A stretch of DNA of 64,000 nt from Novosphingobium barchaimii LL02. GTDB lineage: Bacteria > Pseudomonadota > Alphaproteobacteria > Sphingomonadales > Sphingomonadaceae. A program made the translations under genes and the position numbers. Where the stretch lies: assembly GCF_001046635.1 (NCBI RefSeq), contig NZ_KQ130452.1, positions 1,228,668 through 1,292,667 on the forward strand, read 5' to 3'. The notes under the pieces were generated by a model. That model was not told the DNA's origin. It ran no database searches and worked only from the letters and a program-made list of their open reading frames with translations. Below, piece by piece: positions 37,864 through 53,745 of the stretch (position 1 is the first letter of the stretch; every line of letters begins with the position of its first letter).

Positions 37864-37912
37864 GCCTGACTATACCACACCGACTCCTCGTCGCCACAGA
37901 AAACCGCAGATA

Positions 37913-38266: not shown

Positions 38267-38667
38267 TCCCGGATCGCCGCCAGTACCGCGCGCAGGTGGT
38301 CCATCTCGACCGCGCCCATGATCCGAACCGTCACGTCTCGTACCACCAACTCCAAGCCGCCAGGTTCGAGTTGCTTCTCCTGAGCCAGCGTGACGGGTAC
38401 GAACCGCAATTCCTCGACGGCTCCTGCTGCTCGCGCTTGCCGACGCCAATAGTGCAAAAGGCCAAGGCCGACGCCGTTATCGCGGGCGACCTGCGCCACA
38501 GTCATTCCTGGCACAAAGCTCTCAGCCAGAATGCGGTCGCGTACGTCATCCGGCCAACGCTCGTAGCGCCGACGTCCGGGCGGCAAACTGACGGTCAAAC
38601 GCGCAGTTGTACTGTGCGACGCACACGTCAAACCGCCGTTTGACCCTGCATCAATTTCATCCGACAT
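38263..38667 (-). CDS. tnpA: IS66 accessory protein TnpA
   Basis: The 134-residue product has a helix-turn-helix: RRYERWPDDVRDRILAESFV and GMTVAQVARDNGVGLGLLHY followed by WRRQARAAG, typical of IS66 Orf1. A C-terminal segment (FVPVTLAQEKQLEPGGLELV) is normal. It is the first gene of the tnpA-tnpB-tnpC-yecA operon; the promoter must lie in the ~80 bases to the right IS end. Confidence 0.92.
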   Translation of the reverse strand: MSDEIDAGSNGGLTCASHSTTARLTVSLPPGRRRYERWPDDVRDRILAESFVPGMTVAQVARDNGVGLGLLHYWRRQARAAGAVEELRFVPVTLAQEKQLEPGGLELVVRDVTVRIMGAVEMDHLRAVLAAIRE

Positions 38668-38746
38668 TGCCCGATCTCCTCCTCGTCTCGGGCGAGCCTA
38701 ACCATCAGCAAGCTCTCGGAATACGTGGGGCGGGTGCAGCGGTTAC

Positions 38747-38754
38747 AGTTCAAC
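38747..38754 (+). repeat. Target duplication, right copy (AGTTCAAC)
   Basis: Exact second copy of the 8-bp IS66 target duplication. The host reading frame continues from it into the right half of the split gene. Confidence 0.9.
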
Positions 38755-39530
38755 CGGGTACGTGTCCTTGATCGGTCCGGAAATGCGATGAGCGTTAAAG
38801 GCTATATCATCGCGATGCGATGGGCAGTCCACACACATAGCCCCACCATCTTCACGACCCTTTCGGCAGAGGATCCGCAGACCCCCGGCGAGCGTCCATT
38901 TTTTGATGAAAGCGGCGGGTTCGCGGCTGCTGTCCGCTCCCTACATTACGCACCTAGCCTTGCGAAAATCCGCCAGCCTATTCTCTCCGCCGCGCTCGCG
39001 ACAGGTACGACGGTCGCTGAAGACTTGAGCTTCCAGATCATTATATGGGAATGTCTGCTGCCAACGCTGCAGGGATTGCGGTTTGTCGGAGGCTATTTTC
39101 CGACTGATCCCGAGGGCGTTCTGCCCTTCAAGTTCGAATACGGCAAGGTGGTTGCCGTGCCGAACGATCCTTTCAGGCTCGATCAAGGTTCAGGCACTTT
39201 CATCGGCATCGAGGAGAAGACCTTTCGAAGCCTTGTCGGTGCCGCGCGAAATGGGCCTATGACGATCAACGATCTCCCGCGCATCGAACGCCGGAGCACT
39301 GGATTTAGTGGTGCAAGCTACCTCCCGGACGGCCATGTTCTGGGCCCGATAGAATTGTTCCGCCCGCTCGCCGCCGATCTAATCTAATCGCGGCCGAGCC
39401 TTGAAATTCCGGTCAGGACATCACTGAACCGGCGTCAGCCAGTCTTTTCGCCTTGCCGCTTCCCAAGGATATGTGCTCCCGCCATTCGTATTTTAGGAGT
39501 GCGTTTCAGGCTTTACTTAGGCGTTGACCC

Positions 39531-40493
39531 ATGGTGACGTCATTCCCGATGGGACTGAGCAAAATGAGTGTGACAGAAGAAGCAAAATGGCCGCAGTTCG
39601 GCCTTGAACGGCACATCAAATACGGTACGAGCTTTATCCATCTGAACATCAATCTTGGCAGTGCCGATGCATGCACGCAATATTTCAGCACTTGGATTGG
39701 CAGATATAGAAAGCTGATATGCGGCTGGGACCAACACGAGACAACAGCTTGGTCGGTGCGGCTACGGCAATCCCTCAAGTCGGCATTTGTCTCAACTCAT
39801 TTTGCGCTCGCCGCCGAGGAAGCGAGCAAGGCCGGATCGCGCGTTACGTTTTATTACCTTTCCTATTACGCCGTACTACATGCGGTTTGGGGTGTGCTCT
39901 ACCTACACCCCGATGAGAAAACGTCAGCCATCGCGAAACCGACGCACAGCAAGCTACCCAACGTTTTCCACTCTGCGTTCTGTGGACCGAAAGGCATAAT
40001 CCGGTATCAGATCAAAGATACGATGGAAGACCTCCGTCTCCGGCGGGAGTACTATTCCTACCGCATGCCGCTCAATTCGCCGTTTGACGACGACCGCGAC
40101 GCCAAGGGATACACGTCGAGCGTCGGCGGCATCGTCAAGCAGTGCATCCAACTTTCCAACCTCCACTCGCACCTAATCGTGGAAGCAGCCGATCGAGAGG
40201 GCGTCGGTCCCTTAGAAATACAGTCCGAGGGGCGCCAAGCTTTCACGGATGTCTTCAGGGCTATAAACAGCCAGCGCCATCCCACGCGGGACGGTTGGTT
40301 TCTGGAACCCGCCGACGAGCGGGCGCTAAGCGAGTTCCTGACGCAGGGGGTGGATCTGCAAGGGCACTCCGTCATGTTAGACCACATGTTCGACGAGTAC
40401 ATGACCTACATGCGTGGCGCAGAGGCAGAGGCAAAGGCAGATGTAGCGAAGACGGAGCAGGTGAGATCGCTTATTTTCCACGCAATGTACTGA
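39531..40493 (+). CDS. Hypothetical protein, 320 aa
   Basis: I do not recognise this protein. It is predicted soluble and helical, with aromatic-rich segments FYYLSYYAVLHAVWGVLYLH (residues about 107-126) and LRLRREYYSYRMPLNSPFDD. The first resembles the helix pairs of HEPN-type or Abi-type proteins, but no clear R-x4-6-H catalytic motif stands out. In-frame ATGs at 39549 and 39564 are alternative starts. Codon use is lower in GC than the backbone. Surrounding genes are nuclease remnants and Abi-like genes, suggesting a defence-island resident. Confidence 0.55.
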   Translation: MVTSFPMGLSKMSVTEEAKWPQFGLERHIKYGTSFIHLNINLGSADACTQYFSTWIGRYRKLICGWDQHETTAWSVRLRQSLKSAFVSTHFALAAEEASKAGSRVTFYYLSYYAVLHAVWGVLYLHPDEKTSAIAKPTHSKLPNVFHSAFCGPKGIIRYQIKDTMEDLRLRREYYSYRMPLNSPFDDDRDAKGYTSSVGGIVKQCIQLSNLHSHLIVEAADREGVGPLEIQSEGRQAFTDVFRAINSQRHPTRDGWFLEPADERALSEFLTQGVDLQGHSVMLDHMFDEYMTYMRGAEAEAKADVAKTEQVRSLIFHAMY

Positions 40494-40794
40494 CTCACCG
40501 GTCGCATCTTTGCACGCCCCGCGGCACAGGTGACCGGATGATGGTCGCCAGTAATTGCTCGGCTCGCAACCGGCATCTCGGCAAGCGGCTAGGGCTCCTC
40601 GTTCTGCGGGCGATTACGCGGAAGCTCGAACGTCGGCTGCTAACGGTGTGTTTGTCCCAAGCCTCGCCCATCGCAGTCAACCCATGCACAAACCCGCTTG
40701 CGCGGGAGGGGCGCGCGTGGCGTCGTCGCGCGTGTTATAAATAGGCCTTTAGCGAGGTGAGGCTGCCAGTTCCTTCAACGGAGAGGAACTTGCC
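40494..40794. other. Gene-free stretch
   Basis: No supported gene in these ~300 bases. A GC-rich segment near 40700-40735 (GGCGTCGTCGCGCG) precedes AT-rich DNA (TTATAAATAGG, 40735-40745), which together with GGAGAGGAAC at 40780-40789 forms a promoter-plus-ribosome-site region for the integrase remnant. Confidence 0.45.
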
Positions 40795-40935
40795 ATGAAT
40801 GTCTCGATAAATACTGCCTCGATCAACCCGCTGCGTCAGCGCATGCAGCACGACATGATGATGAGGGTGTTCGGAACGCTGGCCCCTGCCGGTCCGCCCG
40901 ACTATGATACGACCCTGGCTATCGCCTTTCGTTGA
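40795..40935 (+). pseudogene. N-terminal remnant of a tyrosine-recombinase gene
   Basis: The 46-codon frame starts behind a strong site (GGAGAGGAAC) and encodes NPLRQRMQHDMMMRVFG, which resembles the N-terminal start (NPLRQRM-x-xDM) of XerC/D-type site-specific integrases. It then diverges and stops. It is likely an integrase start whose remainder was lost when the following nuclease-like sequence was joined to it. Confidence 0.4.
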
Positions 40936-41665
40936 ACGGCGTGTCTTGTACGCCGAACTACAGCAGGTTTGGATATCGCAGATGCAACTATACGAGGATT
41001 TAATTGATCGGAATTTGTACCATCGATCGGTAGAAACCCTGTGCCCTATAATCGTTAAGGGTGAAAAGTCTTATCAGAATTGGACTGAGATCGATGCCGT
41101 CATCAATGTCATCGTTCCGATTCTAACATTACTTGACTTTGGTCAATATGTACTGGTTGGAAAGAAGGCGAAATTCTCCCAGCCATCGCCGACATCCCAT
41201 CGTCCTGATTTTGAAGTCCGGAGCTTTTTCGAGACACTCGCGATCCTGGAGACCAAGCCTTATGGGACGGTGCTGGCGGGACGAAACTCATCGACCGGCT
41301 ATGTTACCCCGCTTGATCAGATACTGACCTACCTCGATCATTACTTGCCGGTGTTCGGGATACTGACAAATGGCCGGCACTGGTGCCTGCTAAAAAAGCT
41401 CGGCCGTGGTTTTGGAGAAAACTCTGCTGCAGGCGCGGACTACATCGGCGTGAGTTTCGATCTTGTGGGGTTTTTCGGCTCTATAATAGATCATAATAAC
41501 GTCGAAGCCTTTCTCGGAATGTGCCACGCCCAACGGCTATTCCGCCGGGACTGGCCGGATGATCGATCGACCGACTATCGTTTGCAATCTGTCGTACGGA
41601 AGGGCGGCCACTCGACCCTTCTTCTGAAGGATTTCTCGGCCGGTAGAGTCTGGACGACTTCGTAA
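40904..41665 (+). CDS. PD-(D/E)XK nuclease-domain protein, probable truncated restriction enzyme
   Basis: Residues 100-125 read RPDFEVRSFFETLAILETKP, where Asp102, Glu116 and Lys118 fit a PD-(D/E)XK nuclease motif. PLDQILTYLDHYLPVFGILT and NGRHWCLLKKL match the layout of the N-terminal nuclease region of type I or type IIG restriction-modification enzymes. No helicase, methyltransferase or specificity region follows, so the protein is probably a fragment. The 5' end overlaps the integrase remnant and the start is uncertain: ATG 40904 and ATG 40982 are both possible. Confidence 0.5.
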   Translation: MIRPWLSPFVERRVLYAELQQVWISQMQLYEDLIDRNLYHRSVETLCPIIVKGEKSYQNWTEIDAVINVIVPILTLLDFGQYVLVGKKAKFSQPSPTSHRPDFEVRSFFETLAILETKPYGTVLAGRNSSTGYVTPLDQILTYLDHYLPVFGILTNGRHWCLLKKLGRGFGENSAAGADYIGVSFDLVGFFGSIIDHNNVEAFLGMCHAQRLFRRDWPDDRSTDYRLQSVVRKGGHSTLLLKDFSAGRVWTTS

Positions 41666-41795
41666 CTCTCACTGCAACGCCGGCGAAGCGATATCCCCAT
41701 CAACGGCACGCTTGTACGACAATTGAGTAGGCCTTCATCCAACGGATGGTTACAGCCACTGTTCAAAAACTTCGTGGCTTCAGAGAGGAACAGGG

Positions 41796-42707
41796 GTGAG
41801 CACGGGTTACTTCACGGACCGCGAATATGGCGTGCGGCCAGCAGTATCGGAAGCGGTTGACGAGCGCGTCTGGGGTGCCCTCCACGCGCTGATCGACATG
41901 CGCATTGGAAGCGGCGCTTTTGGTTTTCGATTCACCGACCAATGTCCTGACGGAAACGGGCCCTGCGGTTGCGATCGGCAGGCCTTCGCGCAATTCCTGC
42001 AAGCCGAAGTCCCTTGGATCGACTGGCCACTGCGACGGAGCGAACTACCCGAAACGCCGGTCGTGCTCGACCTGCTGGAGTTTTGTGCCAAGGCGGTCGG
42101 CGAACCTATCCTCGGCAGTTACCATTCCTATCATGGCCACTATCACATGACATGGGACCGAGCCGCCGGCCTCGCCTCGTTCATCGCGGACGTGAATCTC
42201 CTATTCCAGCGCAACGGCATCGCTTTCAAGCTCGATCCCGACGGACGCGCGCAGCGGATACTTCCGCAGCCTGTCGCACAGGCGCTTGGCTGGCAAATGT
42301 TCGATACCGGCGAAGCGGAGCTCGATCGCCTGCTGGAATATGCTCGCTCCCGCTTCCTATCGCCGAAGCTCGATGATCGCCGAGACGCGACCGAAAAGCT
42401 GTGGGATGCCTTCGAGCGTATGAAGACCGTCGAGCCCGGGGCAGATAAGCGCGCCCAGGCCGATGCTCTGCTGGATCGCGCCGCCGCTCCCGGCACGAGA
42501 ATGCGTGACGCGCTCGCGGAGGAGGCGAAGACGCTCACTTCTATCGGCAACACCCTGCGCATTCGCCATTCGGAGGTGACGCAGGAAATGATCGACTGCT
42601 CGGAGCAGTTGGATTGGCTCTTCGTGCGCATGTTCGGCTTCGTACGGCTGCTTTTGCTGGCGTCAGGGAGGAGTGCCCATCCGCCCGCCGGGGCAGGGAG
42701 CAATTAG
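41796..42707 (+). CDS. AbiJ N-terminal domain 4 (AbiJ-NTD4) family protein
   Basis: The 303-residue product starts with MSTGYFTDREYGVRPAVSEA and holds VWGALHALIDMRIGSGAFGF, SYHSYHGHYHMTWDRAAGLA, FIADVNLLFQRNGIAFKLDP and EKLWDAFERMKTVEPGADK. This order matches the AbiJ-NTD4 domain found in phage-defence (abortive infection) proteins. The C-terminal half is helical, with LRIRHSEVTQEMID. The start is a GTG behind GAGAGGAAC. It is followed 3 bases later by a membrane protein gene, suggesting a two-gene module. Activity against phage is inferred from the family name only. Confidence 0.68.
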   Translation: MSTGYFTDREYGVRPAVSEAVDERVWGALHALIDMRIGSGAFGFRFTDQCPDGNGPCGCDRQAFAQFLQAEVPWIDWPLRRSELPETPVVLDLLEFCAKAVGEPILGSYHSYHGHYHMTWDRAAGLASFIADVNLLFQRNGIAFKLDPDGRAQRILPQPVAQALGWQMFDTGEAELDRLLEYARSRFLSPKLDDRRDATEKLWDAFERMKTVEPGADKRAQADALLDRAAAPGTRMRDALAEEAKTLTSIGNTLRIRHSEVTQEMIDCSEQLDWLFVRMFGFVRLLLLASGRSAHPPAGAGSN

Positions 42708-42710
42708 CGC

Positions 42711-43361
42711 ATGAGCATCGATGTCTCGAAGGCCGATATTGGCATGGCGGTCGGAACCGTCACCGCCATCGCCGGTGTCCTTGCGCACCTGAAGTTCGAC
42801 AGTTCGGTCACGACGGTGCTAACCGCGAGCGGTGTCATCGCAACCGCATTAGCGAGCTACTTCAAGTCGCGCAGTGCGGCCAGGAGCGCGCAGGAGTCCG
42901 AAACGAGCGCGAGGAACAGCGCGCGCGACGTGGCCAACATCGCGGCTGCAACCGCGGCCGACAACACTGCCAAAACCGTGCTGGTGCAAACGGTCACCGC
43001 GGAGCGAGCGAAATGGCGGGCCGAGATGCGCGATCAGGTCGAGCGGCTCGCGGCACAGCTGCGGGCCGATCAGCGGGGCGGACCCAGCGCCGACTGGGAG
43101 CAGGTCGACCGGCTGCGGACCGGGATCCGGCTGCGCCTCAATCCGGCCGGTCGCACACCGCCGCCTGCCGGTGGTGACGCGCATGATCCGGATCGCGCGG
43201 TCCACCACGTGCTCGACGCCCTCGCGACTGCGGGCGAGTCAGGAACGACGCCTCATGCCGCGCTGGCGGATCAGCTCGAGGAGCATATGGCAGTCCTCCT
43301 CAAGGGCGAGTGGGACAAATCGAAGCTTGAAGCTGTATCAGGCAAGCTTGGCGTCCCGTGA
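42711..43361 (+). CDS. Membrane-anchored coiled-coil protein, partner of the AbiJ-like gene
   Basis: The 216-residue product has hydrophobic stretches at about residues 10-27 (GMAVGTVTAIAGVLAHLK) and 34-50 (TVLTASGVIATALASYF), then an Ala/Arg/Glu-rich helical region (about 52-125) likely to form a coiled coil, and a C-terminal soluble part. Only 3 bases separate its ATG from the AbiJ-like stop, so co-expression is very likely. Small membrane proteins beside Abi-type sensors often act as effectors, but no known effector family was recognised. Confidence 0.6.
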   Translation: MSIDVSKADIGMAVGTVTAIAGVLAHLKFDSSVTTVLTASGVIATALASYFKSRSAARSAQESETSARNSARDVANIAAATAADNTAKTVLVQTVTAERAKWRAEMRDQVERLAAQLRADQRGGPSADWEQVDRLRTGIRLRLNPAGRTPPPAGGDAHDPDRAVHHVLDALATAGESGTTPHAALADQLEEHMAVLLKGEWDKSKLEAVSGKLGVP

Positions 43362-43451
43362 TGTGATGCCGTCAAGCTTGCCATGTTTGGATTTACTGTG
43401 GTGCTCAACGCGCGGGCACATGCGATCCGGCAAAAGGAAGGCCATCGAGAC

Positions 43452-44600
43452 GTGGAAAAGACAGAAGACACCTCCTATCGCGCATGCTCCGCGCCGATGG
43501 CCTACTACATTGATGAAAGTGGCAATACGGGCGACCTGACCCGGGCCAAGACCGAGAGCTATGGCCAGGAGCAGCGCATGTTCACGCTTGCCGCAGTGGG
43601 CTGCGACCTCGAACAACCGTTCAAGACCAAGTTCGAGGCTCTGAAGGCGGCCCATCGTTTCCAGTCCGTCGAGGTGAAGTCCAAACAGGCCTATGAACGG
43701 CCACAATTCGTTTCCGACCTTCTCGACCTGCTCGAGGAGGCCGGTTGCCCGATCTTCATCGAGGCGGTGGACAAGCACTATTTCGTCGTCACGAACATCA
43801 TCGAGCGGATCGTCGTGCCCTATGTCGGACCATGCGACGTTCAACCGGACACGCTTTGGATGAAGGGGGTGATGACGGATCATATGGCGCTTTACGGGCC
43901 GCCCGAGATAGCCAAGGCCTTCATCGCCTGCTGCCAGAGCCGAGATTACGTCGAAGTCCGCGATTTCTATAAGCAGGTCATCCGCTGGGCCCAGACAACC
44001 CGGCTTCCCACCGAAGGAGTAGCCGAGGCCTTCGTCCTCTTCACCCGCGACAGCCTCAAGGATTTTCGCAAACTCCCGAAGGCAAAGGCGGTAGAACGCG
44101 CGCTGCCTGTTCCGGACATCTCACCCAAGGGTAAGACCCTCTGGGTCCTGCCGAACCTGTCATCCTTCACCCACATCTATGCCCGGATCAACCGCTTCCT
44201 CGATAAGCAGGTGTCGGGTGTGACGCTGTTTCATGACGAGCAGCTTCAATTCGGGGACATCCTGCTTCAAAACAAGATGGTGATGGAGGCGTTTACCAAC
44301 GAGGACGTGATACCGTCGCTTAAAACCGCAGATTTCAGGTTCTCGGAATCCGCGAAATTGGAGTTCCTGCGTTCACACGAGTCCATCGGCATCCAGATCG
44401 CTGATGTTCTTGCGGGTTTCGTTGCGCGATACATCCAGGATGCAGTCTGGGGCGAGATGACCATGGATCGTGAGAGGATGACGATTTTTAGCCGCCTTGT
44501 AGCCTCTGGCGAACGCGAGCGAGGAACCGGACTGAACATCGTGGCTCCAGACGGTCTAGTCCACCTTCTTGGCATAATACCGCGAGCAAATTATTTATAA
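43452..44600 (+). CDS. DUF3800 domain protein
   Basis: The 382-residue product carries YYIDESGNTGDLTRA at the N-terminus and HESIGIQIADVLAGFVARYI near the C-terminus, both hallmarks of DUF3800, which is predicted to have an RNase H-like fold with acidic active-site residues (Asp-Glu in the first motif, Asp in the last). FHDEQLQFGDILLQNK in between fits the family. Function is not established, but DUF3800 genes recur in mobile and defence regions. The GTG at 43452 is chosen for its AAGGAAGG site; an internal ATG at 43497 sits just before the conserved motif and an upstream ATG at 43383 is possible. Confidence 0.78.
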   Translation: MEKTEDTSYRACSAPMAYYIDESGNTGDLTRAKTESYGQEQRMFTLAAVGCDLEQPFKTKFEALKAAHRFQSVEVKSKQAYERPQFVSDLLDLLEEAGCPIFIEAVDKHYFVVTNIIERIVVPYVGPCDVQPDTLWMKGVMTDHMALYGPPEIAKAFIACCQSRDYVEVRDFYKQVIRWAQTTRLPTEGVAEAFVLFTRDSLKDFRKLPKAKAVERALPVPDISPKGKTLWVLPNLSSFTHIYARINRFLDKQVSGVTLFHDEQLQFGDILLQNKMVMEAFTNEDVIPSLKTADFRFSESAKLEFLRSHESIGIQIADVLAGFVARYIQDAVWGEMTMDRERMTIFSRLVASGERERGTGLNIVAPDGLVHLLGIIPRANYL

Positions 44601-44667
44601 CCATCTAACTCAAATAGAATATCTGTCTTGCCAGCGAAGAGAGCATTGGCCCCAGAAGGAAGCGGAA

Positions 44668-45804
44668 ATGGTAGAGATTGGCGATCTGGAACGGGAAAAG
44701 CAACTCCGAAAGGCACCCGCAGATCTACCAGCCAGCCTCAGCAATGTCGTGGAATACCGGAAATCTGGGCTCAGCCTGAACCACGTCGTCGGGTGCCCAC
44801 TCGATTGCGGCTACTGCGTGCGCCACCTGTTCGACAACTTCGAGATGAAGCGCCCCCACCTTGTAATGAGCGATGAACAGGCCGTGGCCGCGTTGATTGC
44901 GAATTGGGCATTTGTCCCCCACGTCACCCCCGTCCAGATCTTCAATCGGGCAACCGATCCGTTTCTGCCTCTCGTGAAGCAGCATATGCTACACTCCCTT
45001 GAACTGCTTGATGGACATGGGCTCCGAAACCACGTTCTGGTCATTACCCGCTGGAAGGTCGCGCCAGAGGATGTCGAGCGCCTCGAGCGCCTGCGGCATC
45101 TCAAGGTCACGGTCTTGGTGACATGGTCTGGCATCACGGACCCCCGTCTCGAACCGGTTGACAGCGTGATCGCGGAAAGGTCGCTCGAAGTGCTGGCGCA
45201 GCACGCCCGCCGGACAAAGAGGATTCTCTACTGGCGTCCAATCATAGCTGGCGTGAACGACACCGACGAGTGCATCGACAGCGCCAGTGCACTCTCGCAC
45301 TTCGCGGACGCCACCGTCTTCACCGGCCTGTTCCATCGCGACCAGATCCGCGAACACTTCCGCTCGGCAGGCGTCGAGGATCTCTATCAGGACGTGCCGA
45401 GGCGCAAGATTCTCCCGCGCGAGGTCGAGCAGCGCATCCTGAACCGCTATTGCGGCACGCCGATTTTCCGCAAGACCTCTTGTGGTATCGCCTACGCCTA
45501 CGGCGAAGCCGATTACAACGGTCATTACGGCATTCGGGAGATATGCGACATCTGCCCGTCGAACCAGATCGAGCTCTGCGCAGCGGGGCATAGTACGCCG
45601 TCGCCGAACCGGCTGTCATCGCTCGCCCAGAGAGTCGGTTTGGATCCTGCGGGTATTGAAATCGCTGCAGAAAAGGTGATTGTTGAGGACAGCTGCGAAC
45701 AGCAGCGCTACTTCATTCAGCATTCACTGGGCTTCCAGGTGCATGATCGTGCTGAGCCGCATCTGCCGGAACGCCACGGCCGCGCCGAGGAGGGCTGGAA
45801 TTGA
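44668..45804 (+). CDS. Radical SAM protein, SPL-like
   Basis: The 378-residue product has a radical SAM motif CPLDCGYC (Cys43, 47, 50) followed by RHLFDNFEMKRP, and a barrel with ITRWKVAPEDVERLERLR and LYWRPIIAGVNDTD. A second cysteine cluster (REICDICPSNQIELC, about residues 290-304) suggests another metal site. The overall form resembles the spore photoproduct lyase/elongator-like branch, which act on nucleic acids, but the substrate is unknown. AGGAAGCGG precedes the ATG. It leads a four-gene operon with stop/start overlaps, whose next member is an exonuclease. Confidence 0.82.
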   Translation: MVEIGDLEREKQLRKAPADLPASLSNVVEYRKSGLSLNHVVGCPLDCGYCVRHLFDNFEMKRPHLVMSDEQAVAALIANWAFVPHVTPVQIFNRATDPFLPLVKQHMLHSLELLDGHGLRNHVLVITRWKVAPEDVERLERLRHLKVTVLVTWSGITDPRLEPVDSVIAERSLEVLAQHARRTKRILYWRPIIAGVNDTDECIDSASALSHFADATVFTGLFHRDQIREHFRSAGVEDLYQDVPRRKILPREVEQRILNRYCGTPIFRKTSCGIAYAYGEADYNGHYGIREICDICPSNQIELCAAGHSTPSPNRLSSLAQRVGLDPAGIEIAAEKVIVEDSCEQQRYFIQHSLGFQVHDRAEPHLPERHGRAEEGWN

Positions 45805-46382
45805 GCGAGATAATGTGGGCCATCGACGTCGAGGGCAGCGGAAAGTCGCCCCCCGAGATCGTGGAACTGGCAATCGCCGAGATGGACGGGCTGTCTCTGA
45901 CCGGGCGCAGTAAGCATTGGCGGTTCAGGCCGAAGAACGGAATCTCCCCGATAGCGGCTCGCATTCACGGGATTTGGGATGAGGACGTGGTCGACGCGCC
46001 CGATCTCGAGGATGTGGTCGATGACGTGCTGCTATGGCTCGAGGACAAGGCCATCGTTGGCCATAACGTCAAGGTAGAGTTGGACATCCTCAGCCCGGCG
46101 CTTGAAGGGTGGGAGCCCGCAGCGGCCTATGACACGTTGAAGATCGCGCGGCGCCTCCTTTCCGCCGAGGACAAGCATGGGCTGGGGTACCTCGGATCCA
46201 AGCTGGACCTGAGCCCTCGGGCTGAGAAGATTACCGGCGGGAAGGCGCACTCGGCTCCCTTCGATGCGGTGTTGTCAGCTCTCCTTCTGGACCACATGCT
46301 GCGTGATCGCACAGAGGAAGACCAACGCGCGATCCTGGCAGATGCGGACATTCTCGGCGGCGCACAAGGCTTGCTCCTGTGA
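45801..46382 (+). CDS. DEDDh-family 3'-5' exonuclease
   Basis: The 193-residue product has the five DnaQ-like active-site residues: Asp9 and Glu11 in AIDVEGSG, Asp95 in GHNVKVELDI, and His150 with Asp155 in HSAPFDAVLSALL. It is a single-domain exonuclease that would trim single-stranded DNA or RNA 3' ends. The start is a TTG overlapping the radical SAM stop (TTGA) behind a strong GAGGAGGG site. Its coupling to a radical SAM enzyme suggests that the two act on the same nucleic acid. Confidence 0.85.
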   Translation: MSEIMWAIDVEGSGKSPPEIVELAIAEMDGLSLTGRSKHWRFRPKNGISPIAARIHGIWDEDVVDAPDLEDVVDDVLLWLEDKAIVGHNVKVELDILSPALEGWEPAAAYDTLKIARRLLSAEDKHGLGYLGSKLDLSPRAEKITGGKAHSAPFDAVLSALLLDHMLRDRTEEDQRAILADADILGGAQGLLL

Positions 46383-46966
46383 GGCGATCACCATTCCGGA
46401 TTGCGGTCGCAGGAACCCACTCCACCGGCAAGACCACCTTCCTCACAAGGCTGAAGGCGGTGTTCGAACAGCGCGGGCTTGCGGTGGCCTACGTCCACGA
46501 TAGCGCGGTCAACGCCCAGGATCGAGGCTTCCCAATCCTTGCGCACCATACCTTCGAAAGCACGGCCTGGCTGATGGCGAGGGCCATCGAGCTGGAAACC
46601 GAGGCAACCCTCTCGGCAGACGTCGTCCTCGTGGACCGTCCCGTCGCTGATGCTCTGGGATACCTTCAGGCGGCGCTCCTGCACACCTCCAGGTCGATCC
46701 CGCCCGCCCGCATACAGGCGTTGGAGCGGATATGCGAGGCCTGGGCGCCCGAATATGACCTCGCCTTTGTGACGGTCCTTGATCCATCCGTCGAGCTCGG
46801 TGAAGGCCGGGACGGGGACGCGCTTTTCCGGGCGAGGGCCGCCGAGGCGGTCACCCGCGTAGTCGACAGGGTCATGCCCGACCGCCACCTTCTTCGCCAT
46901 GGCGGCGCGGATGCAGCTCTGACGTTCGCCATTGCCGCTTTCGACGACCAAGACCGCGGCGCCTGA
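46379..46966 (+). CDS. P-loop NTPase, kinase-like (AAA_28 type)
   Basis: The 195-residue product starts with FRIAVAGTHSTGKTTFL, a Walker A motif at residues 12-20, and has Walker B VVLVDRPVAD at about 82-91. The layout (Walker A, HTFESTAWLMARAIELE, Walker B with Asp-Arg-Pro) resembles nucleoside or NadR-type kinases of the AAA_28 group. It might phosphorylate a nucleoside or modified base. GTG start overlaps the exonuclease stop (GTGA), so translation is coupled. No substrate is evident from the sequence. Confidence 0.8.
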   Translation: MRRSPFRIAVAGTHSTGKTTFLTRLKAVFEQRGLAVAYVHDSAVNAQDRGFPILAHHTFESTAWLMARAIELETEATLSADVVLVDRPVADALGYLQAALLHTSRSIPPARIQALERICEAWAPEYDLAFVTVLDPSVELGEGRDGDALFRARAAEAVTRVVDRVMPDRHLLRHGGADAALTFAIAAFDDQDRGA

Positions 46967-46968
46967 AG

Positions 46969-47913
46969 TTGGCCCTCGATCAGAATGATCCCGTAAGGAT
47001 CGCCGAAGACCGGGCGATTACCCTGGCAGGAGAGCGCCGCATCGGGCTGGGCTGCATGGCACTGACCGGGATTTATGGCGCCGTTAGCCGTGAGCAAGCC
47101 GTCGCGACGCTCGCCGCAGCCCTAGATAATGGCGTGACGCTTTTCGACACGGCCCCGCTGTATGGCAATGGCGCAAACGAAACGTTGCTGGGCGATGTGC
47201 TGTGCGACCTCCCCAATGCAGCCATTGTCACCAAGTTTGGTCTCTATGCCGATGCTGGGGGCAAGCTATACCGCGACAGTCGGCCCGAAACGATCAAAAA
47301 GTCCGTCGAGGCCTCGCTCACGCGCTTGAGGCGTGATCGCATCGACTTGCTGCTCCAGCACCGCGCCGATCCCGAAACGTCGGACGACGACGTTCAGGCC
47401 TGCATCGAGGATCTGATCTCCGCGGGCAAAGTGGGCGAGTTCGGGATCGCCGGCGTTTCTGCCGATCAAATTACACGGCGTCCGACGACACGCGCCTTCG
47501 GCGCTGTTCAGAACGAGCTTTCCCTGGTGACCGGCCAGAAGATTGAGGAAGTCGCTGCCGCTATGGCGCGGGGAGCTTGTTTCATGGCCTTCTCCCCACT
47601 GGGGCGGGGCGTTTTGACAGGCTCAAAGTCGGGACAGCCAGATGATCTCAGGACATCAATGGCTGCTTTCGCTCAGTGCTCCACGAGCGAACGCCCCCAT
47701 GATGGTGGTTCTGGTGCCGATATGGGAGCAGAGGTGGAGGCTTCCGTGCGCCGGTCGCTGGCTTGGGTTCTTGCTCAGGGGGCCAATGTCGTTGCGATTC
47801 CTGGCTGTCGATCCCCGGGCCACGTCTCCGTGATTTTTGATGATGGCGATCGCTTTGCCAGCTCTTGCGGCCCTATGATCCGAGGCAAGATCGCCCGGAA
47901 CGCTTCGGACTGA
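46969..47913 (+). CDS. Aldo-keto reductase
   Basis: The 314-residue product has the AKR catalytic tetrad: Asp60 and Tyr65 in TLFDTAPLYGNG, Lys89 in IVTKFG, and His131 in LLLQHRAD. IRIGLGCMALTGIYG-type N-terminal and FMAFSPLGRGVLTG segments match the YakC/YajO branch, which reduces carbonyls with NADPH. The C-terminal 60 residues are less regular than in relatives, and the expected NADPH-binding part is recognisable only in WVLAQGANVVAIPGCR. The TTG start lies 2 bases after the NTPase stop. Its presence in a nucleic-acid operon is unusual. Confidence 0.85.
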   Translation: MALDQNDPVRIAEDRAITLAGERRIGLGCMALTGIYGAVSREQAVATLAAALDNGVTLFDTAPLYGNGANETLLGDVLCDLPNAAIVTKFGLYADAGGKLYRDSRPETIKKSVEASLTRLRRDRIDLLLQHRADPETSDDDVQACIEDLISAGKVGEFGIAGVSADQITRRPTTRAFGAVQNELSLVTGQKIEEVAAAMARGACFMAFSPLGRGVLTGSKSGQPDDLRTSMAAFAQCSTSERPHDGGSGADMGAEVEASVRRSLAWVLAQGANVVAIPGCRSPGHVSVIFDDGDRFASSCGPMIRGKIARNASD

Positions 47914-48080
47914 AGGTACTGGCATGCTTTGGACGGTAGTGGCTTCGATCGTGGTCTGGCTCTGCAGAACTAGCGATGCTGCTACATCGTCGGGGACCTT
48001 TGCCTTAGGAAGCGTCAGGCGTCGACCTCTTCTGAAAGTAGGCTTTCGGCTCGGGTGGAGGTCTCAATCGGCTCGCAATG

Positions 48081-49361
48081 TCAGGCCGCGCGTCGGCCAA
48101 GGAGAGAGAACAACGTCGGGCTTTCCACCAATTCGATTCGATCGTCCCAACCCATCTGCATCGCGGAACGGCGAACGGCGCCGTCCGGGGTGATGATCCG
48201 AATATCCTTGGCTTCCCGCAACGTGGCGAGGGATGCGTCGACGATGCTGCTGATGACGGGCGTGTCGTTGCAATTGGCGAGGAACAGCTGCTTCTTGGTC
48301 AGCGGGGCCTCCCCGGCAGCCACGCGCGCATGCAGCATCTTCGCAAGCTGATCGACGACCGCCGCCTCGGACCGCGTGCGGGCATTGTCGTTAAACCCGA
48401 ACTCCAGCATGTCCTCTCGCACGTCCACGCCCGGCATGAACCCGAGCGAATTGAAGCCGGCACGCCCGAAATGCTCGAACGTGTTCTCATGCTGCCAGTG
48501 AATCTTGCCCATCTCCTCTCGGGCCTGGTGGTGACGTGAAAGGTGAAGCAGCCAATAATCGCGGTTCGATCCGCCCTCGGGATGGATGAAGAACGGGGTG
48601 TAGTAGGTTGCGCCCGTATTCTGCTGAATGTGCTCGTACAGCGTGTTCTGGATCAGCCGCTTCCAGCCGCGCTGCTCCTTCATCTGCAGCATGTCTTGTA
48701 CGTCTTCGCGGCGCAGGTCGATTGCGCTCAGCCCCGGCGTATCGATCATCTTGTCGGTTAGCAGGTTGACCAGATGGTCCACCATGAACGTCAGGACGAC
48801 TTCTGGATTTTGGAGCGACGCCATTATCTGGCGTATGGTGGCGAAGGTGACCGCGCTCCAGCCGTACTGGTCCAAGAAAAACAGGGACCGATGGGCGCGC
48901 CCCTTGGCCTGGATCCTTCGGATGATCTCGTCGCTGACGTCCTCGAACTTGGACGTGTAGATATGGATGTCCTTGCCGATCCGAGATTCATATCCGCGCT
49001 GGCGCAGGACCTCCCGCAGGAAGTCCACGTGCTTGGGGTTGGCATCGACGAAGACGAATTCGGCGTCGATCTCGAGGCCGCGGGCCCGGGCGGCGTCCAG
49101 TTCGGCCTGGGCTCTTTCCACGGAAGCGAGCATGCGCAGCGGCGATCCATCGACCTCGTTGGCGCCCATGGCGTACATCCCGCCCCCGCAGAATCCATCG
49201 ACGAGGGTCAGCTTGAGCTTGCGGGTCAGATGACTCTTCGTCAGCGTCCGAATGTACGCGGTGATATACGCGTCGAAAATCTGATGTTTCGCGAAGCTAT
49301 GCAGCCCCAATTCTGGCAATGGTTCGCCGATGTTCCAGTCGTAATGCCGCTTCTTCGCCAT
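48081..49361 (-). CDS. Three-Cys-motif partner protein TcmP (first copy)
   Basis: The 426-residue product begins MAKKRHYDWNIGEPLPELGL and HSFAKHQIFDAYITAYIRTL, the usual TcmP start, then has the Rossmann loop LTLVDGFCGGGMY (residues about 52-63), the acidic FVFVDANPKHVDFL and LFFLDQYGWSAV. These match the SAM-binding and catalytic strands of methyltransferase-like folds, so it may be a SAM-dependent enzyme. TcmP genes are known to be near Gp37/Gp68 proteins. It is divergent from the Gp37/Gp68 gene and convergent with the aldo-keto reductase. The start is supported by AGGGGTGG. Confidence 0.83.
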   Translation of the reverse strand: MAKKRHYDWNIGEPLPELGLHSFAKHQIFDAYITAYIRTLTKSHLTRKLKLTLVDGFCGGGMYAMGANEVDGSPLRMLASVERAQAELDAARARGLEIDAEFVFVDANPKHVDFLREVLRQRGYESRIGKDIHIYTSKFEDVSDEIIRRIQAKGRAHRSLFFLDQYGWSAVTFATIRQIMASLQNPEVVLTFMVDHLVNLLTDKMIDTPGLSAIDLRREDVQDMLQMKEQRGWKRLIQNTLYEHIQQNTGATYYTPFFIHPEGGSNRDYWLLHLSRHHQAREEMGKIHWQHENTFEHFGRAGFNSLGFMPGVDVREDMLEFGFNDNARTRSEAAVVDQLAKMLHARVAAGEAPLTKKQLFLANCNDTPVISSIVDASLATLREAKDIRIITPDGAVRRSAMQMGWDDRIELVESPTLFSLLGRRAA

Positions 49362-49536
49362 GCGCCACCCCTGTCGGCACTTGTGCCCGACGAGCAATAT
49401 GTCTGGCATTGCAGGCGCTTGTCTAGCATTCTGTCGTTGACATCGACTGTAGCAATGGTCGAACGGCCACGCTTCTTTCGTTGCAACGCGACTCCGCCTG
49501 TGGCAGATTCACGTTTCGTTCCTGGGGGCGCATGAA
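49362..49536. promoter_or_regulatory. Divergent promoter region between TcmP1 and Gp37/68 genes
   Basis: These 175 bases separate two divergently read genes and must contain both promoters. Short inverted segments are present but no known operator was recognised. The gene pair on each side belongs to the same three-Cys-motif system, so shared regulation is likely. Confidence 0.45.
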
Positions 49537-50280
49537 ATGGCTGACGGCAGTGCAATCGAATGGACGGATGCGACGTGGAACCCGGTGACGGGCTGCACGA
49601 AGATCACGGCCGGTTGCGACAACTGCTATGCAGAACGCTTTTCGGAACGCTGGCGCGGCATCCCTGGCCACCCTTTCGAGCATGGTTTCGATCTGACTCT
49701 GCGACCTGAGCGCCTCGCTCAGCCACTAGCATGGAAGCGACCACGGATGATCTTCGTGAACTCCATGTCGGACCTGTTCCACAAGAAGGTTCCCGGCACG
49801 TTCATCGATCAGGTCTTCGACACGATGGAGCAGGCCGACTGGCATGTCTTCCAGGTGCTGACCAAGCGCAGTTCGCTCATGCGCGACTATCTCAACCGCC
49901 GCTATCGCGACCGGACGCCGCCCGCCCACATCTGGCTGGGCGTGTCTGTCGAGGACGCGAACTCCAGCGCGCGCATCGAGCACCTGCGCCAGGCACCCGC
50001 CGGCGTACGGTTCCTATCGGTCGAGCCGCTTATCGGCGCCGTAGGACAAGTCGATCTGACCGGCATCCACTGGGTGATCGCGGGCGGCGAAAGCGGACCT
50101 GGCGCCCGTCCCATGGCGATCGAATGGGCACGGGAGATTCGTGATCAGTGCGCCGCGCAGAACGTCGCCTTCTTCTTCAAGCAGTGGGGTGGCATCAGAC
50201 CGAAGTCCGGTGGCCGCGAGCTGGATGGACGGGAATGGAACGAGCTTCCGGCCTCCCTGCCATCAAGAGCAGCGGCCTGA
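49537..50280 (+). CDS. Phage Gp37/Gp68-family (DUF5131) three-Cys-motif protein
   Basis: The 247-residue product has the three cysteines Cys20, Cys27 and Cys30 in TGCTKITAGCDNCYAERF, followed by FEHGFDLTLRPERLAQPLAW, IFVNSMSDLFHKKVP and WHVFQVLTKRSSLM, the family signature seen in phage and bacterial Gp37/Gp68 proteins. SVEPLIGAVG and FFFKQWGG end the domain. The cysteine spacing (C-x6-C-x2-C) resembles an iron-sulfur site of radical SAM/SPL-like proteins, but activity is unproven. The TcmP2 gene overlaps its last 46 bases. Confidence 0.88.
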   Translation: MADGSAIEWTDATWNPVTGCTKITAGCDNCYAERFSERWRGIPGHPFEHGFDLTLRPERLAQPLAWKRPRMIFVNSMSDLFHKKVPGTFIDQVFDTMEQADWHVFQVLTKRSSLMRDYLNRRYRDRTPPAHIWLGVSVEDANSSARIEHLRQAPAGVRFLSVEPLIGAVGQVDLTGIHWVIAGGESGPGARPMAIEWAREIRDQCAAQNVAFFFKQWGGIRPKSGGRELDGREWNELPASLPSRAAA

Positions 50281-51494
50281 GCGTGGCGCTGGCGCCAGAG
50301 CATTACACCGGGCGGGAGCAGGCGCTGGTCAAACACCATTTCCTGAAGCACTACCTTGAACGCCTGATCCACAAGATCGCCAGCAAGTATGGCGAGGTAG
50401 TCTACGTCGATGGATTTTCCGGCCCATGGAAGAACCAGTCGGAGCAGTTCGAGGATACATCGTTCGGCATTGCCCTGCAGGCTTTGACTGACGCCAAGCG
50501 CTCATGGGCAGGAATAGCCCACAACCCGCGCCAGGTTAAGATGACCGCCCACCTGGTGGAGAAAAGCCCCCACGCCTATGCCCGGCTCGCTGAATTGCAG
50601 GCGATGTTCCCAGAAGTGGAAATCCACACCCACAAGGGTGACTTCACCGAGATTGCGCCGGCTATTGCCCGATGCATCCCGAGCCAGGCATTTTCCTTCA
50701 TTTTGATCGACCCCAAGGGCTTTTCGCTCGATTTGCAGGCGCTGAAGCCCCTAATCGGAAGGCCACGATGCGAAGTCGTCTTTAATTTCATGTTCGACTT
50801 CGTGAACCGGTTCGCGCTTTTCGAAGACGACAAGGTGGCGCCAGTCCTCGACAAGCTGATCCCTACCGAGGATTGGCGCAATCAATTGCGCGCCTTGGAA
50901 CAGAATCCTGCCGCTACCCCGGAAATGCGCAAACGTGCGATCGTGGAGGCATTCGAATGCGCAGTATCCAAGGTCGCAGGATACAAATATGTTGCCGACG
51001 TCGATGTGAAACGGCCGGATCGCGATCGCACCCTCTACTTTCTTGTCTATGGAACGCGGCAGCCGCCGGGCATCGAGGTATTCCGGGACTGCCAGATCAA
51101 GTCGCTGGGAGTACAGGCCGACATCATCGGCCGAAAGAAAGTCGAGAAGCTGGCTGAAAAGTCGAGCCAGCTCGAACTGCTCGGATCCATGCAGGAAATG
51201 GCACCGGACCCTAACGCAGTGTTTCTCATCGACGAGATGGAGAAGGCGCGACACCTACTGTTGGACATTGTCCCCACATCCGGCACCGGTAGGGCATGGG
51301 GTGACATATGGACCCATGTGCTGGCGAACCACGTCATCCGCCTGACCGAGCTGAATAGGATCGCCAACGATTTGCGAAAGAGCGGTCACCTTCTCTTTCC
51401 TTCATGGCCACCAAGCCCAAAAAGGGTGCCGAAAGACGAATTTCCTGTGCTTCTCGGGACGGTAACTCCATCGGTAAGCGAGCCGGTGCCTTGA
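50235..51494 (+). CDS. Three-Cys-motif partner protein TcmP (second copy)
   Basis: The 419-residue product has the TcmP core: HFLKHYLERLIHKIASKYGE, VVYVDGFSGPWKNQ (SAM-type loop, residues about 56-68), and FSFILIDPKGFSLDLQ, equivalent to a methyltransferase motif IV. FNFMFDFVNRF and RTLYFLVYGTRQPPGIEVF follow. The two TcmP copies are distant in sequence, so they are probably not a recent duplication. The ATG at 50235 lies within the Gp37/68 gene; a GTG at 50282 would begin just after that stop. Tight overlap supports joint expression. Confidence 0.82.
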   Translation: MERASGLPAIKSSGLSVALAPEHYTGREQALVKHHFLKHYLERLIHKIASKYGEVVYVDGFSGPWKNQSEQFEDTSFGIALQALTDAKRSWAGIAHNPRQVKMTAHLVEKSPHAYARLAELQAMFPEVEIHTHKGDFTEIAPAIARCIPSQAFSFILIDPKGFSLDLQALKPLIGRPRCEVVFNFMFDFVNRFALFEDDKVAPVLDKLIPTEDWRNQLRALEQNPAATPEMRKRAIVEAFECAVSKVAGYKYVADVDVKRPDRDRTLYFLVYGTRQPPGIEVFRDCQIKSLGVQADIIGRKKVEKLAEKSSQLELLGSMQEMAPDPNAVFLIDEMEKARHLLLDIVPTSGTGRAWGDIWTHVLANHVIRLTELNRIANDLRKSGHLLFPSWPPSPKRVPKDEFPVLLGTVTPSVSEPVP

Positions 51495-52840
51495 AACGGA
51501 AGAAGCGTCCTCCAGAGCAAAAGCCCCTGAGCCAGGCGGAAATCGAGCGACGGCGCAAGATCAATGCCGCGTTCCGTCATGCAGAGCAGACAGTTTCGCA
51601 GACGGGCGTCTACGAACCGGTCGTCTATCGTCCTTCGCCTCCTCCAGCTGCGGTTAAGTCGCGGTCCCCACGCAACGGCGGCAACGCGACGACCGCCCCA
51701 TCGCTAAACAACTCCGCGCTGGAAGACGCCCTTCGCGAGGTATTCCGTCTGCCAACCGCCACGCCTAGTTCCGCGATCGCGCGGCAACCAGCGAAGGCGC
51801 CGAAGACCCCGCCGAAGCAGAAAGGCAAGATGCCCGCCATAGCCAAGGAAGCGGGGACGACACCCCCATCCGCACGACGGACCGATCTGCCAGCTGGTTC
51901 GAAGGTCGATACAACCGACAAGCCCCAGATCGTCATCTCACGCCACAAAAAGCGCAGGACTCTAGGCCCGGAGGATTTCTACACTTCTGCGAAATTAAAG
52001 AAGGCTAAGCGCAGCGCGGAGGCAAATCGACAACAAGCCACCGATCAAGCCCCCGCAAAACCGAAGAAGAAATTGAAGGCCGAAAAAGCCGTAGCGAGAG
52101 ATGCTGCCCGAAAACAGTCCGCACTGCAGGCTTTGCTGGCCAAAGCCGAACGGCAGAAAGCCGCAAAGGACTCTGCCAGGAAAGGCAAGCAGTCGAACGA
52201 CGCCAGCCGAATTGCGTTCAATGCCCGCCTTCGTGAACAGCGGGACGCAGAGGCAAAAGTTGCCGCAGCGCCGTCGCCATTCGAAAAACTGCAGCGCGAC
52301 TGGAACGCCGCATTCACGATCCTGCTCCGATATGAAGATGAGAATCCCAACGCTCGGAATGTGGTCGAAGCCAAACAACGTCTGAACCTGATCGAAGCCG
52401 AATGGGATCGGCGCCGCAGCCTGAAACCTGGTGAGCCAGACTACTTCCCGTGGCCATCGACCGAAATCGGCGCGGCAGCAGCGGTGACCAAGTCGAGTGT
52501 GATCAACCTTTACGAAAGGGGCATGCTGGGGTGCCTCGGGTATCAGGTAGGCGCCAGCAGCCCCCTAACGGCAGTGCAGCGCGCGCGCCTGCTCGGACAA
52601 GTATTCGTGATGCGGCTGCCACCCTTGAACGATCTGGAATACATGGCATCTTGGGGCCAGCCGGTCACCGGACCACGCCTTCATAAAATCGCTGAATGCC
52701 TTGCGGCCTTCGTGAAAAATGCAAAACGCCGGAGCGGTGTTTCTTTCCATACAGCGATCGCCCATTGGGAGGCTGACCTAGTCCACATGCGCCGCCACTA
52801 CTACGATGGCCGCTTCGATTTCACCTGGCCACGAGCTTAA
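51404..52840 (+). CDS. Lysine-rich hypothetical protein, 478 aa
   Basis: The protein has a long N-terminal basic, low-complexity region (residues 1-270) very rich in Lys, Arg, Ala and Pro, including a likely helical stretch (AAFRHAEQTVSQ) and a coiled coil near 205-270, and a C-terminal folded domain from about 290 (PFEKLQRDWNAAFTILLRYE) to the end (HWEADLVHMRRHYYDGRF). The basic arm could bind nucleic acid. The ATG at 51404 overlaps TcmP2 by 91 bases; a TTG at 51491 overlaps the TcmP2 stop by only 4 bases and may be the true start. I do not recognise the C-terminal domain. Confidence 0.6.
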   Translation: MATKPKKGAERRISCASRDGNSIGKRAGALKRKKRPPEQKPLSQAEIERRRKINAAFRHAEQTVSQTGVYEPVVYRPSPPPAAVKSRSPRNGGNATTAPSLNNSALEDALREVFRLPTATPSSAIARQPAKAPKTPPKQKGKMPAIAKEAGTTPPSARRTDLPAGSKVDTTDKPQIVISRHKKRRTLGPEDFYTSAKLKKAKRSAEANRQQATDQAPAKPKKKLKAEKAVARDAARKQSALQALLAKAERQKAAKDSARKGKQSNDASRIAFNARLREQRDAEAKVAAAPSPFEKLQRDWNAAFTILLRYEDENPNARNVVEAKQRLNLIEAEWDRRRSLKPGEPDYFPWPSTEIGAAAAVTKSSVINLYERGMLGCLGYQVGASSPLTAVQRARLLGQVFVMRLPPLNDLEYMASWGQPVTGPRLHKIAECLAAFVKNAKRRSGVSFHTAIAHWEADLVHMRRHYYDGRFDFTWPRA

Positions 52841-53221
52841 AGAATAGTTCGAGAATGGCTAGAGATCTGCAGCTAAAAGTGTCGGTACAGTTGGCCATGC
52901 GGACGGCTCGTTTGGTCATTACGTCCGGAATCAGCGCTCCGGCGCTCAGGACCCGACAGTCAGGTTAGTCCCAACGTCGGACCGTCCTGCTGGCTCATGC
53001 CGAAATGAACGAAAGGCAATTTAGGCGGAGACGCCGCCCAAAAGGAGCCTGTCCGGATCGTCCCAGTAGTAGAAATAGTGTTGTCATGTTCCGCGCGGCT
53101 CGGATGGCTGGAAAGCGATAAAACCGGGTTGTCGATTGTGCCAACACGCTGTACCAAGTGGCTGTGCAGCCGCGGGCTGTATGCCAGTATTTTCAAAGCC
53201 TTGTAGGGCGTGAAAATTTGA

Positions 53222-53242
53222 CTGGGGCTCCTGCCGCCCCAG
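53222..53242 (+). repeat. Inverted repeat at attR
   Basis: CTGGGGC (53222-53228) pairs with GCCCCAG (53236-53242) around TCCTGCC. The right arm lies inside the attachment repeat. In the tRNA the right arm instead pairs in the acceptor stem. Confidence 0.55.
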
Positions 53243-53246
53243 CCAG
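53229..53246 (+). repeat. attR: right island boundary
   Basis: TCCTGCCGCCCCAGCCAG is an exact copy of 27405-27422, the tRNA-Gln 3' end. The bases before and after differ between the two copies (A/C upstream, T/G downstream). It marks the right end of the island; chromosomal genes resume with a cytochrome c gene 62 bases on. Confidence 0.9.
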
Positions 53247-53307
53247 GGATCTGGCTCTGTTGCCACAGAAAACCCACAAGTTATGCACAGGGTTATCCGA
53301 CCAAGCA

Positions 53308-53745
53308 TTAATCTGACTGGCTGCGCAGATATGCGATCAGATCGGCCCGGTCGAGCGGATCGGGAACGCCTGCGAACTGCATGTTCGTGCCCGGAACCAC
53401 TTTTCGGGGATCGGCAAGCCAGGCGTCCAACCTGCGCGCATCCCATATACCGCCCGCGCCGCGTAGGGCCGCCGTGTAGCCATAGCGTCGGCTATTTTGA
53501 CCAGGGATTTGGCCGAACACACCGTAAAGGTTCGGGCCGCCCCGATCCGATGCGCCGGGGGTGATCGTGTGACAGGCTGCGCAAGTGCGAAACTTGCGGG
53601 CGCCGGCATTGGCGTCAGCCACCTTCAGCAGCGCCTCCACGCTTCGATCCGGTCCGGCGGCGAGCAGGCGTTCGTCATGCCTGTCGTCCGAGCAGGCCCA
53701 CAAGGCGAGCGGCAGCCACAGGCAAGCATAAACCGAAATCCGCAA
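53308..53745 (-). CDS. Class I c-type cytochrome
   Basis: The 145-residue product is an exported monohaem cytochrome c. The haem-binding site is RTCAACHT (Cys-x-x-Cys-His), with the sixth ligand Met in PGTNMQFAGVPD. The N-terminus LRISVYACLWLPLALWACSD is a signal that could end in a lipobox-like LWAC. The start is likely a TTG at 53745, which lies just behind GGAGGAGG; an ATG at 53775 has no site and would place that sequence inside the coding region. It is the first backbone gene beyond attR and stands alone. Confidence 0.85.
   Translation of the reverse strand: MRISVYACLWLPLALWACSDDRHDERLLAAGPDRSVEALLKVADANAGARKFRTCAACHTITPGASDRGGPNLYGVFGQIPGQNSRRYGYTAALRGAGGIWDARRLDAWLADPRKVVPGTNMQFAGVPDPLDRADLIAYLRSQSD

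Follow-up and report, generated by a model that had tools for sequence, protein, structure and literature searches.

Two TcmP proteins of different clades beside one DUF5131 protein in Novosphingobium barchaimii LL02, a putative nucleic-acid modification module

The locus described here lies in a stretch of 64,000 nucleotides from Novosphingobium barchaimii LL02 (contig NZ_KQ130452.1, positions 1,228,668 to 1,292,667), hereafter the window, and consists of one gene for a DUF5131 (Gp37/Gp68) protein between two genes for TcmP proteins. The gene for TcmP1 is on the minus strand (48081-49409, likely start ATG 49361) and diverges from the DUF5131 gene on the plus strand (49537-50280), the intergenic region 49362-49536 (no strand) separating them, while TcmP2 is encoded in a plus-strand frame at 50148-51494. 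The DUF5131 gene is 128 bp from the TcmP1 frame and overlaps or touches TcmP2, whose start codon is uncertain (GTG 50148, GTG 50184, ATG 50235 or GTG 50283); with a start at ATG 50235 the two genes share 46 nt, and with one at GTG 50283 they share none. The DUF5131 protein scores 331 bits against PF07505 (gathering cut-off 28.9), and its three cysteines, C20-x6-C27-x2-C30, are invariant across 52 aligned sequences. Motif I, a loop of the type that binds S-adenosylmethionine (SAM, or AdoMet), reads VDGFCGGG in TcmP1 and VDGFSGPW in TcmP2, and motif IV reads FFLDQYGW in TcmP1, which belongs to an alpha (DQ) clade, and ILIDPKGF in TcmP2, which belongs to a beta (DP) clade. A sequence-only reading of this DNA had described these three genes, the divergent TcmP copy, the two SAM-type loops and the C-x6-C-x2-C motif, and all of them are present as described; its statement that the other TcmP gene overlaps the DUF5131 gene holds for the open frame, and the gene overlap vanishes with the last of the four starts. 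The divergent order of the window also occurs in genome G092 (locus L154).

The sequence-only reading had further stated that DUF5131 and TcmP co-occur, and this was followed in two samples, 298 sphingomonad genomes drawn evenly and 398 Pseudomonadota genomes, which have G001 and G150 in common (G001 having first been reached via a DUF5131 query). Among the sphingomonads TcmP was found over the cut-off in 25/298 genomes, all 25 of which also have DUF5131, and in 24 of them the two lie within about 1.3 kb on the same contig, with a median of 65 bp between the matched parts; in the exception, G080, they are on different contigs. In the Pseudomonadota sample, 24/398 genomes have TcmP over the cut-off and in all 24 DUF5131 is adjacent. 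The orientation varies: in the 24 sphingomonad loci DUF5131 precedes TcmP in 14 and follows it in 6, and the genes are convergent in 3 and divergent in 1. DUF5131 also occurs without TcmP, being over the cut-off in 42/298 and 40/398 genomes. Among the 80 closest DUF5131 loci listed from GTDB genomes, 72 have a TcmP match, 70 of these within 400 bp, and at least two of the eight loci without TcmP stop at a contig edge. Moreover, two natural TcmP-DUF5131 fusions were found (L023 and L029), whose TcmP parts score 192 and 211 bits. The link of TcmP to DUF5131 is thus close to obligate, and the adjacency is far beyond chance. In Thermotoga maritima, the control genome, DUF5131 is over the cut-off and the TcmP model has no match.

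The pair itself is already known, as the anti-phage candidates PDC-M30 and PDC-M41 of PADLOC-DB 2.0. The DUF5131 protein of the window matches PDC-M41B and PDC-M30B with E-values of 1e-103 and 3e-102, and TcmP1 and TcmP2 match PDC-M30A with 7e-26 and 1e-13, respectively, PADLOC's own thresholds and system rules being left aside; short TcmPs of the DP type, here called gamma, match PDC-M41A. The earlier remark that the function of the pair is not established stands in so far as the literature searched (open-licence PMC papers, bioRxiv lying outside the scope, among which no paper on DUF5131, PF07505 or GMT-wHTH was found either) gave no experimental function, and is to be amended in that the pair is a catalogued candidate. 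Judged by these model matches, both component types of these candidate systems would be present in the window, which differs from them in having two TcmPs of different clades on one DUF5131; likewise, L006 and L083 combine an M30A-type and an M41A-type TcmP.

Two TcmPs beside one DUF5131 are an uncommon form of this known pair. They were seen in 3/24 TcmP-bearing genomes of the Pseudomonadota sample and 0/25 of the sphingomonad sample, in further samples not drawn by TcmP clade in 1/14 (the centre genome itself) and 2/80 listed, and in viral contigs in 0/80 listed and 0/22. Ten such loci were inspected, and they show five layouts: alpha divergent from DUF5131 followed by beta in the window; DUF5131, gamma and alpha in L005 and L006; beta, DUF5131 and alpha in L081 and L151; DUF5131 and alpha followed by a convergent gamma in L083, L152, L280 and L281, with the TcmPs of L280 and L281 classed by motif only; and a divergent gamma and alpha with DUF5131 convergent with alpha in L153. 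The DUF5131 frame of L081 is broken, and the gamma copy of L280 is short and lies beside an insertion sequence of the IS3 family. Two more replicons of Sinorhizobium meliloti show the arrangement of L083, as judged from match coordinates only. Each of the ten loci has one alpha (DQ) and one DP copy. If the classes are drawn at 77:35, the ratio of DP to DQ among distinct TcmPs, the probability of a mixed make-up in all five layouts is about 0.015; because queries with alpha or gamma TcmPs led to several of the loci, this suggests, and does no more than suggest, a make-up beyond chance.

The TcmP classes were defined on a set of 112 distinct sequences, obtained from 154 model matches of which 134 have the full core, by removing identical sequences and excluding split and cut-off frames. 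Of these, 77 have DP at motif IV and 35 have DQ. In the tree, which comes from a quick search with support by the approximate likelihood ratio test (SH-aLRT) only, 30 DQ rows form the alpha clade (SH-aLRT 99), which includes TcmP1, and 34 DP rows form the beta clade (SH-aLRT 100), which includes TcmP2; five DQ rows fall outside alpha, and the gamma set of short DP TcmPs holds the fusions L023 and L029. TcmPs of all these classes are found with DUF5131 proteins whose identity to that of the window is 77% or more, namely alpha alone in L084, beta alone in L001, L004 and L008, gamma alone in L003, gamma with alpha in L005 and L006, and alpha with beta in the window itself. Furthermore, beta TcmPs whose DUF5131 partners are 80-90% identical have a median identity of 53% (13 pairs, a count that retains repeated loci from one genome). 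By these sequence comparisons, TcmPs have been swapped around a near-constant DUF5131, and TcmP evolves faster within a clade.

Such a pattern could also belong to a system resembling restriction-modification, in which DUF5131 would damage unmodified nucleic acid by radical chemistry, the TcmPs would methylate and so protect that of the host, and each of two TcmPs would cover one half of an asymmetric site. A pairing of attack with protection would account for the obligate linkage in any orientation, as well as the fast change of TcmP, the clade swapping and the two methyltransferases per locus; however, there are genomes and phages with DUF5131 and no TcmP, which is hard to reconcile with a toxic attacker in need of self-protection, and the high conservation of DUF5131 beside a variable TcmP means that site recognition would have to lie in TcmP. 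We therefore regard this explanation as unlikely.

Both TcmPs of the window are clear members of the family, with 211.5 bits (TcmP1) and 138 bits (TcmP2) against TIGR04474, whose curated cut-off is 53, and they are as unlike as had been noted, with 14% identity to each other. The C-terminus of TcmP1 resembles the GMT-wHTH domain (24.7 bits, below the Pfam cut-off of 27), and an extra C-terminal domain resembling a winged helix-turn-helix (wHTH) occurs in 18/39 TcmPs. The relationship of the family emerged from the 34 below-cut-off matches of the TcmP model in the Pseudomonadota sample, since all five that were tested are RlmJ, the 23S rRNA m6A2030 methyltransferase (PF04378). A profile of these five RlmJ sequences aligned by hhalign with a profile of 39 TcmPs at a probability of 96.8 and an E-value of 2.5e-10. 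According to the accessible part of the RlmJ study (PMC3814359), this is a housekeeping rRNA enzyme that loses its activity through K18A or D164A and touches the amino acid part of AdoMet with S100 and D164. Residues matching K18, in motif X, and D164 (E. coli numbering), in motif IV, are kept as Lys and Asp in 112/112 TcmPs, including both copies of the window, and also common to the two families are the motif I Asp (111 of 112), the motif I Gly (109) and a GSP-type Ser (102), which in our reading of the alignment corresponds to S100. By profile and residue comparison, TcmP is distantly related to RlmJ and is not itself an RlmJ; it differs in the extra C-terminal domain of many members and in being carried on mobile DNA with DUF5131. 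TcmP may nonetheless work like RlmJ.

One explanation of the paired copies is a catalyst with a scaffold, for which METTL3-METTL14 provides a model: the DP TcmP would be active and the DQ TcmP would bind the target or regulate, and both would join on the DUF5131 that they share to form a single heteromeric enzyme. The presence of a DQ-clade copy together with a DP copy in all ten inspected loci and in five gene orders fits it, as does an Arg which is missing in alpha and present in 34/34 beta and 40/43 gamma and other rows. However, alpha TcmPs retain the catalytic Lys and Asp in 30/30, and alpha is often the sole TcmP with DUF5131 (for example in L034, L037, L052 and L084), as DP TcmPs are; moreover, the chance of about 0.015 for the mixed layouts is to be read with the fact that the layouts came partly from alpha or gamma queries. 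We consider such a division into catalyst and scaffold rather unlikely.

As for DUF5131, its closest named relative is the radical SAM mobile pair protein A (TIGR04471), a model matched by 52/52 DUF5131 sequences at E-values up to 0.01 and by that of the window at 4e-20. The two are homologous over most of their length, and the three cysteines of DUF5131 align with the canonical CX3CX2C of a mobile pair protein A from a Bacteroides plasmid, with a YA after the third Cys and LTKR, EPL and G-x-E-x-G in common. On that plasmid (L279, 2192-4505) the genes for mobile pair proteins A and B lie downstream of a gene for a metallo-beta-lactamase-fold hydrolase. DUF5131 differs in that its partner is TcmP and not mobile pair protein B, and in its CX6CX2C, with three more residues between the first and second Cys, so that the canonical CX3CX2C is lacking. 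A search of solved structures with DUF5131 gave no match, and the long DUF5131 frames L018 and L207 have no further Pfam domain. Judged by these alignments, DUF5131 is likely a divergent member of the radical SAM superfamily.

Relatives of DUF5131 are widespread on mobile DNA, being present in 160/50,697 phage records and in 407 plasmid records. In the phage records, one has a protein similar to TcmP1 and four have a TcmP similar to that of Fairfaxidum, these two TcmPs being the only queries; in this temperate Gordonia phage, DUF5131 and TcmP lie between the integrase and the immunity repressor. The solo DUF5131 of phages (Gp37/Gp68, phrog_2045) belongs to the same family as that of the window and differs from it in its context and length: among 80 DUF5131 loci listed from viral contigs TcmP was found in 37 and not in 43, and the median length of the protein is 305 aa without TcmP versus 252 aa with TcmP. 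A solo DUF5131, annotated as RNA methyltransferase, is also present among the early genes of a Mycobacterium prophage (L158, 3001-4002). Other TcmP-DUF5131 loci have CBASS-like genes or a DUF1837-helicase pair, which we take to be Hachiman-like, in their vicinity.

On pSymA of S. meliloti the gamma TcmP borders on a helicase of 845 aa, which is probably Hna, because the accessible part of PMC12445080 lists Hna (SMa2245) together with a TcmP (SMa2243). A helicase 94% identical to it adjoins the locus in Rhizobium rhizogenes, and in both species the gamma TcmP gene lies directly downstream of the helicase gene (L083, 6260-9802; L280, 3372-6798). That the gamma TcmP is a required part of Hna was considered and rejected, for the same layout occurs in G654 (L152) without an Hna relative, and the A. 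tumefaciens locus has a different helicase pair.

The abundance of DUF5131 relatives in plasmids and phages, together with the housekeeping role of RlmJ itself, would also fit a function other than defence, in the fitness or maintenance of the mobile element, which might for instance benefit when rRNA or tRNA of the host is modified. The candidate status in PADLOC, the recurrence of defence neighbours and the patchy presence of TcmP (25/298 and 24/398 genomes) argue against this, and we hold it to be improbable.

Considering these relationships, we assume, as an evenly balanced judgement, that the locus encodes a mobile, probably anti-phage module for the modification of nucleic acid, probably RNA, with exchangeable methyltransferases. 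DUF5131 would be its core enzyme, a member of the radical SAM superfamily whose iron-sulfur-type Cys loop has been widened from CX3CX2C to CX6CX2C. TcmP would be an aminomethyltransferase of the RlmJ type that acts with DUF5131, most likely in a complex, and that picks and N-methylates a base; RNA is the probable substrate because RlmJ acts on rRNA. DUF5131 would then add a second, radical-based change to the same target, halting the invader or the infected cell. With DUF5131 constant and TcmP setting the target, an exchange of TcmP would retarget the system. The two TcmPs of the window would complement each other, and where a locus has two TcmPs that differ in clade, one core could serve two targets, or a fuller enzyme could be formed. 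More tentatively, the two-TcmP loci may represent a three-component immune system with two AdoMet chemistries, in which an enzyme of the radical SAM superfamily works with a matched pair of DQ and DP RlmJ-like methyltransferases and which was assembled several times independently because the TcmPs differ in their job (two bases, two strands or two RNAs).

Several observations weigh against the proposed module. The DUF5131 sequences are all under the TIGR04471 cut-off where the scores are shown, that of the window reaching 72.2 bits of the required 355, and 0/52 match Pfam Radical_SAM (PF04055) at E-values up to 10. On the side of TcmP, 0/39 match Pfam RsmJ (PF04378) at E-values up to 1, a profile search of solved structures gave PP2A subunits at chance level with RlmJ behind them at E-values of 0.65-0.75, and motif IV of RlmJ, DPP(Y/F), is not kept, being DPxG or DQxG in TcmPs in place of DPPY, with the second Pro absent in both TcmPs of the window. 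Furthermore, PDC-M30 and PDC-M41 are predictions, computational candidates obtained by 'guilt-by-embedding' according to the accessible part of PMC10855318, so that the anti-phage role is putative. Finally, many phages carry DUF5131, mostly without TcmP where this was seen, and the protein can therefore function by itself or to the benefit of the phage.

A further radical SAM gene had been pointed out near the locus, and a gene with CxxxCxxC is indeed present at 44668-45804 on the plus strand, 2.3 kb from TcmP1; its product is named from the annotation of its relatives. It is followed by genes for a DEDD (3'-5') exonuclease (45801-46382, plus strand), an AAA_28 NTPase (46379-46966, plus strand) and an aldo/keto reductase (46969-47913). 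The run of radical SAM protein, exonuclease and AAA ATPase is kept in all four plasmids viewed among 40 matching plasmid records, only one of which has TcmP-DUF5131 beside it, and what follows the ATPase is an aldo/keto reductase in the window and in Gluconobacter and an HD protein in two Sinorhizobium plasmids. The whole (44668-47913 in the window, L114-L117 elsewhere) is a conserved mobile cassette whose radical SAM protein resembles spore photoproduct lyase, and on plasmids its neighbours include CBASS-like, Shedu-like and dGTPase genes; no description of the cassette was found in the literature searched.

From this neighbour the sequence-only reading had surmised that each TcmP may have an iron-sulfur protein of its own, so that the radical SAM protein and DUF5131 would make up two separate pairs. 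The short distance, 2.3 kb here and about 2.7 kb in psymA of S. meliloti M162, speaks for this. Against it, neither TcmP nor DUF5131 is annotated within 9 kb of three of the four plasmid cassettes, the same five-gene run (DUF3800, radical SAM, exonuclease, AAA, aldo/keto reductase) stands alone in Gluconobacter, the radical SAM query had no match in 397 sphingomonad genomes in a search run without a positive control, and a profile comparison of DUF5131 with the radical SAM protein showed no similarity. In L154, moreover, a DUF5131 82% identical to that of the window is divergent from a relative of TcmP1 which is the sole TcmP in 13.5 kb, and TcmP1 therefore needs no radical SAM gene as a partner. 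We rejected the gene as a partner of either TcmP, the two-pair arrangement being very improbable; the cassette is better read as a separate module of the defence island and a candidate defence system of its own.

All these genes lie on a 25.8-kb integrated island bounded by direct repeats of 18 bp, an attL-like copy at 27405-27422 (plus strand) at the 3' end of tRNA-Gln (27347-27421) and an attR-like copy at 53229-53246 (plus strand), with TcmP1-DUF5131-TcmP2 near its end. An integrase-like frame (27434-29428) follows directly after the tRNA gene, and the G+C content is 0.56-0.64 within the island versus about 0.63-0.69 outside. The frames at 36304-38449 presumably are transposase genes of the IS66 family. 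Seven of the eight island proteins scanned (34145-43361) have no Pfam match at E-values up to 0.01, and a protein at 41796-42707 has a weak match to the AbiJ N-terminal domain 4 (26.2 bits, below the cut-off of 34). No RNA family was found by the Rfam scan of 43000-53500, and predicted promoters and terminators at the locus are as numerous as in shuffled sequence. The 3' end of TcmP2 is overlapped by an open frame of 478 aa (51404-52840, plus strand), which was considered as a further component and rejected: it has no family match and no relative among the 80 closest DUF5131 loci listed or in the further loci compared, and is therefore probably not a component.

The pair itself is thus known, and what is added here is its form with one DQ and one DP TcmP and the relationships of its proteins to RlmJ and to the mobile pair protein, none of which was found in the literature searched, the coverage of which was partial. 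The position of a gamma TcmP next to hna may be relevant to hna constructs already published. As an anti-phage candidate, the DUF5131-TcmP pair is common: PDC-M30 is predicted in 32/100 strains of Pseudomonas aeruginosa, according to the accessible part of PMC10855318. The relationships to RlmJ and to radical SAM proteins make its function testable, as a base of RNA or DNA that bears both an N-methyl group and a radical modification and with four residues to mutate, and the pattern of one DQ and one DP copy speaks against redundancy between the two TcmP clades.

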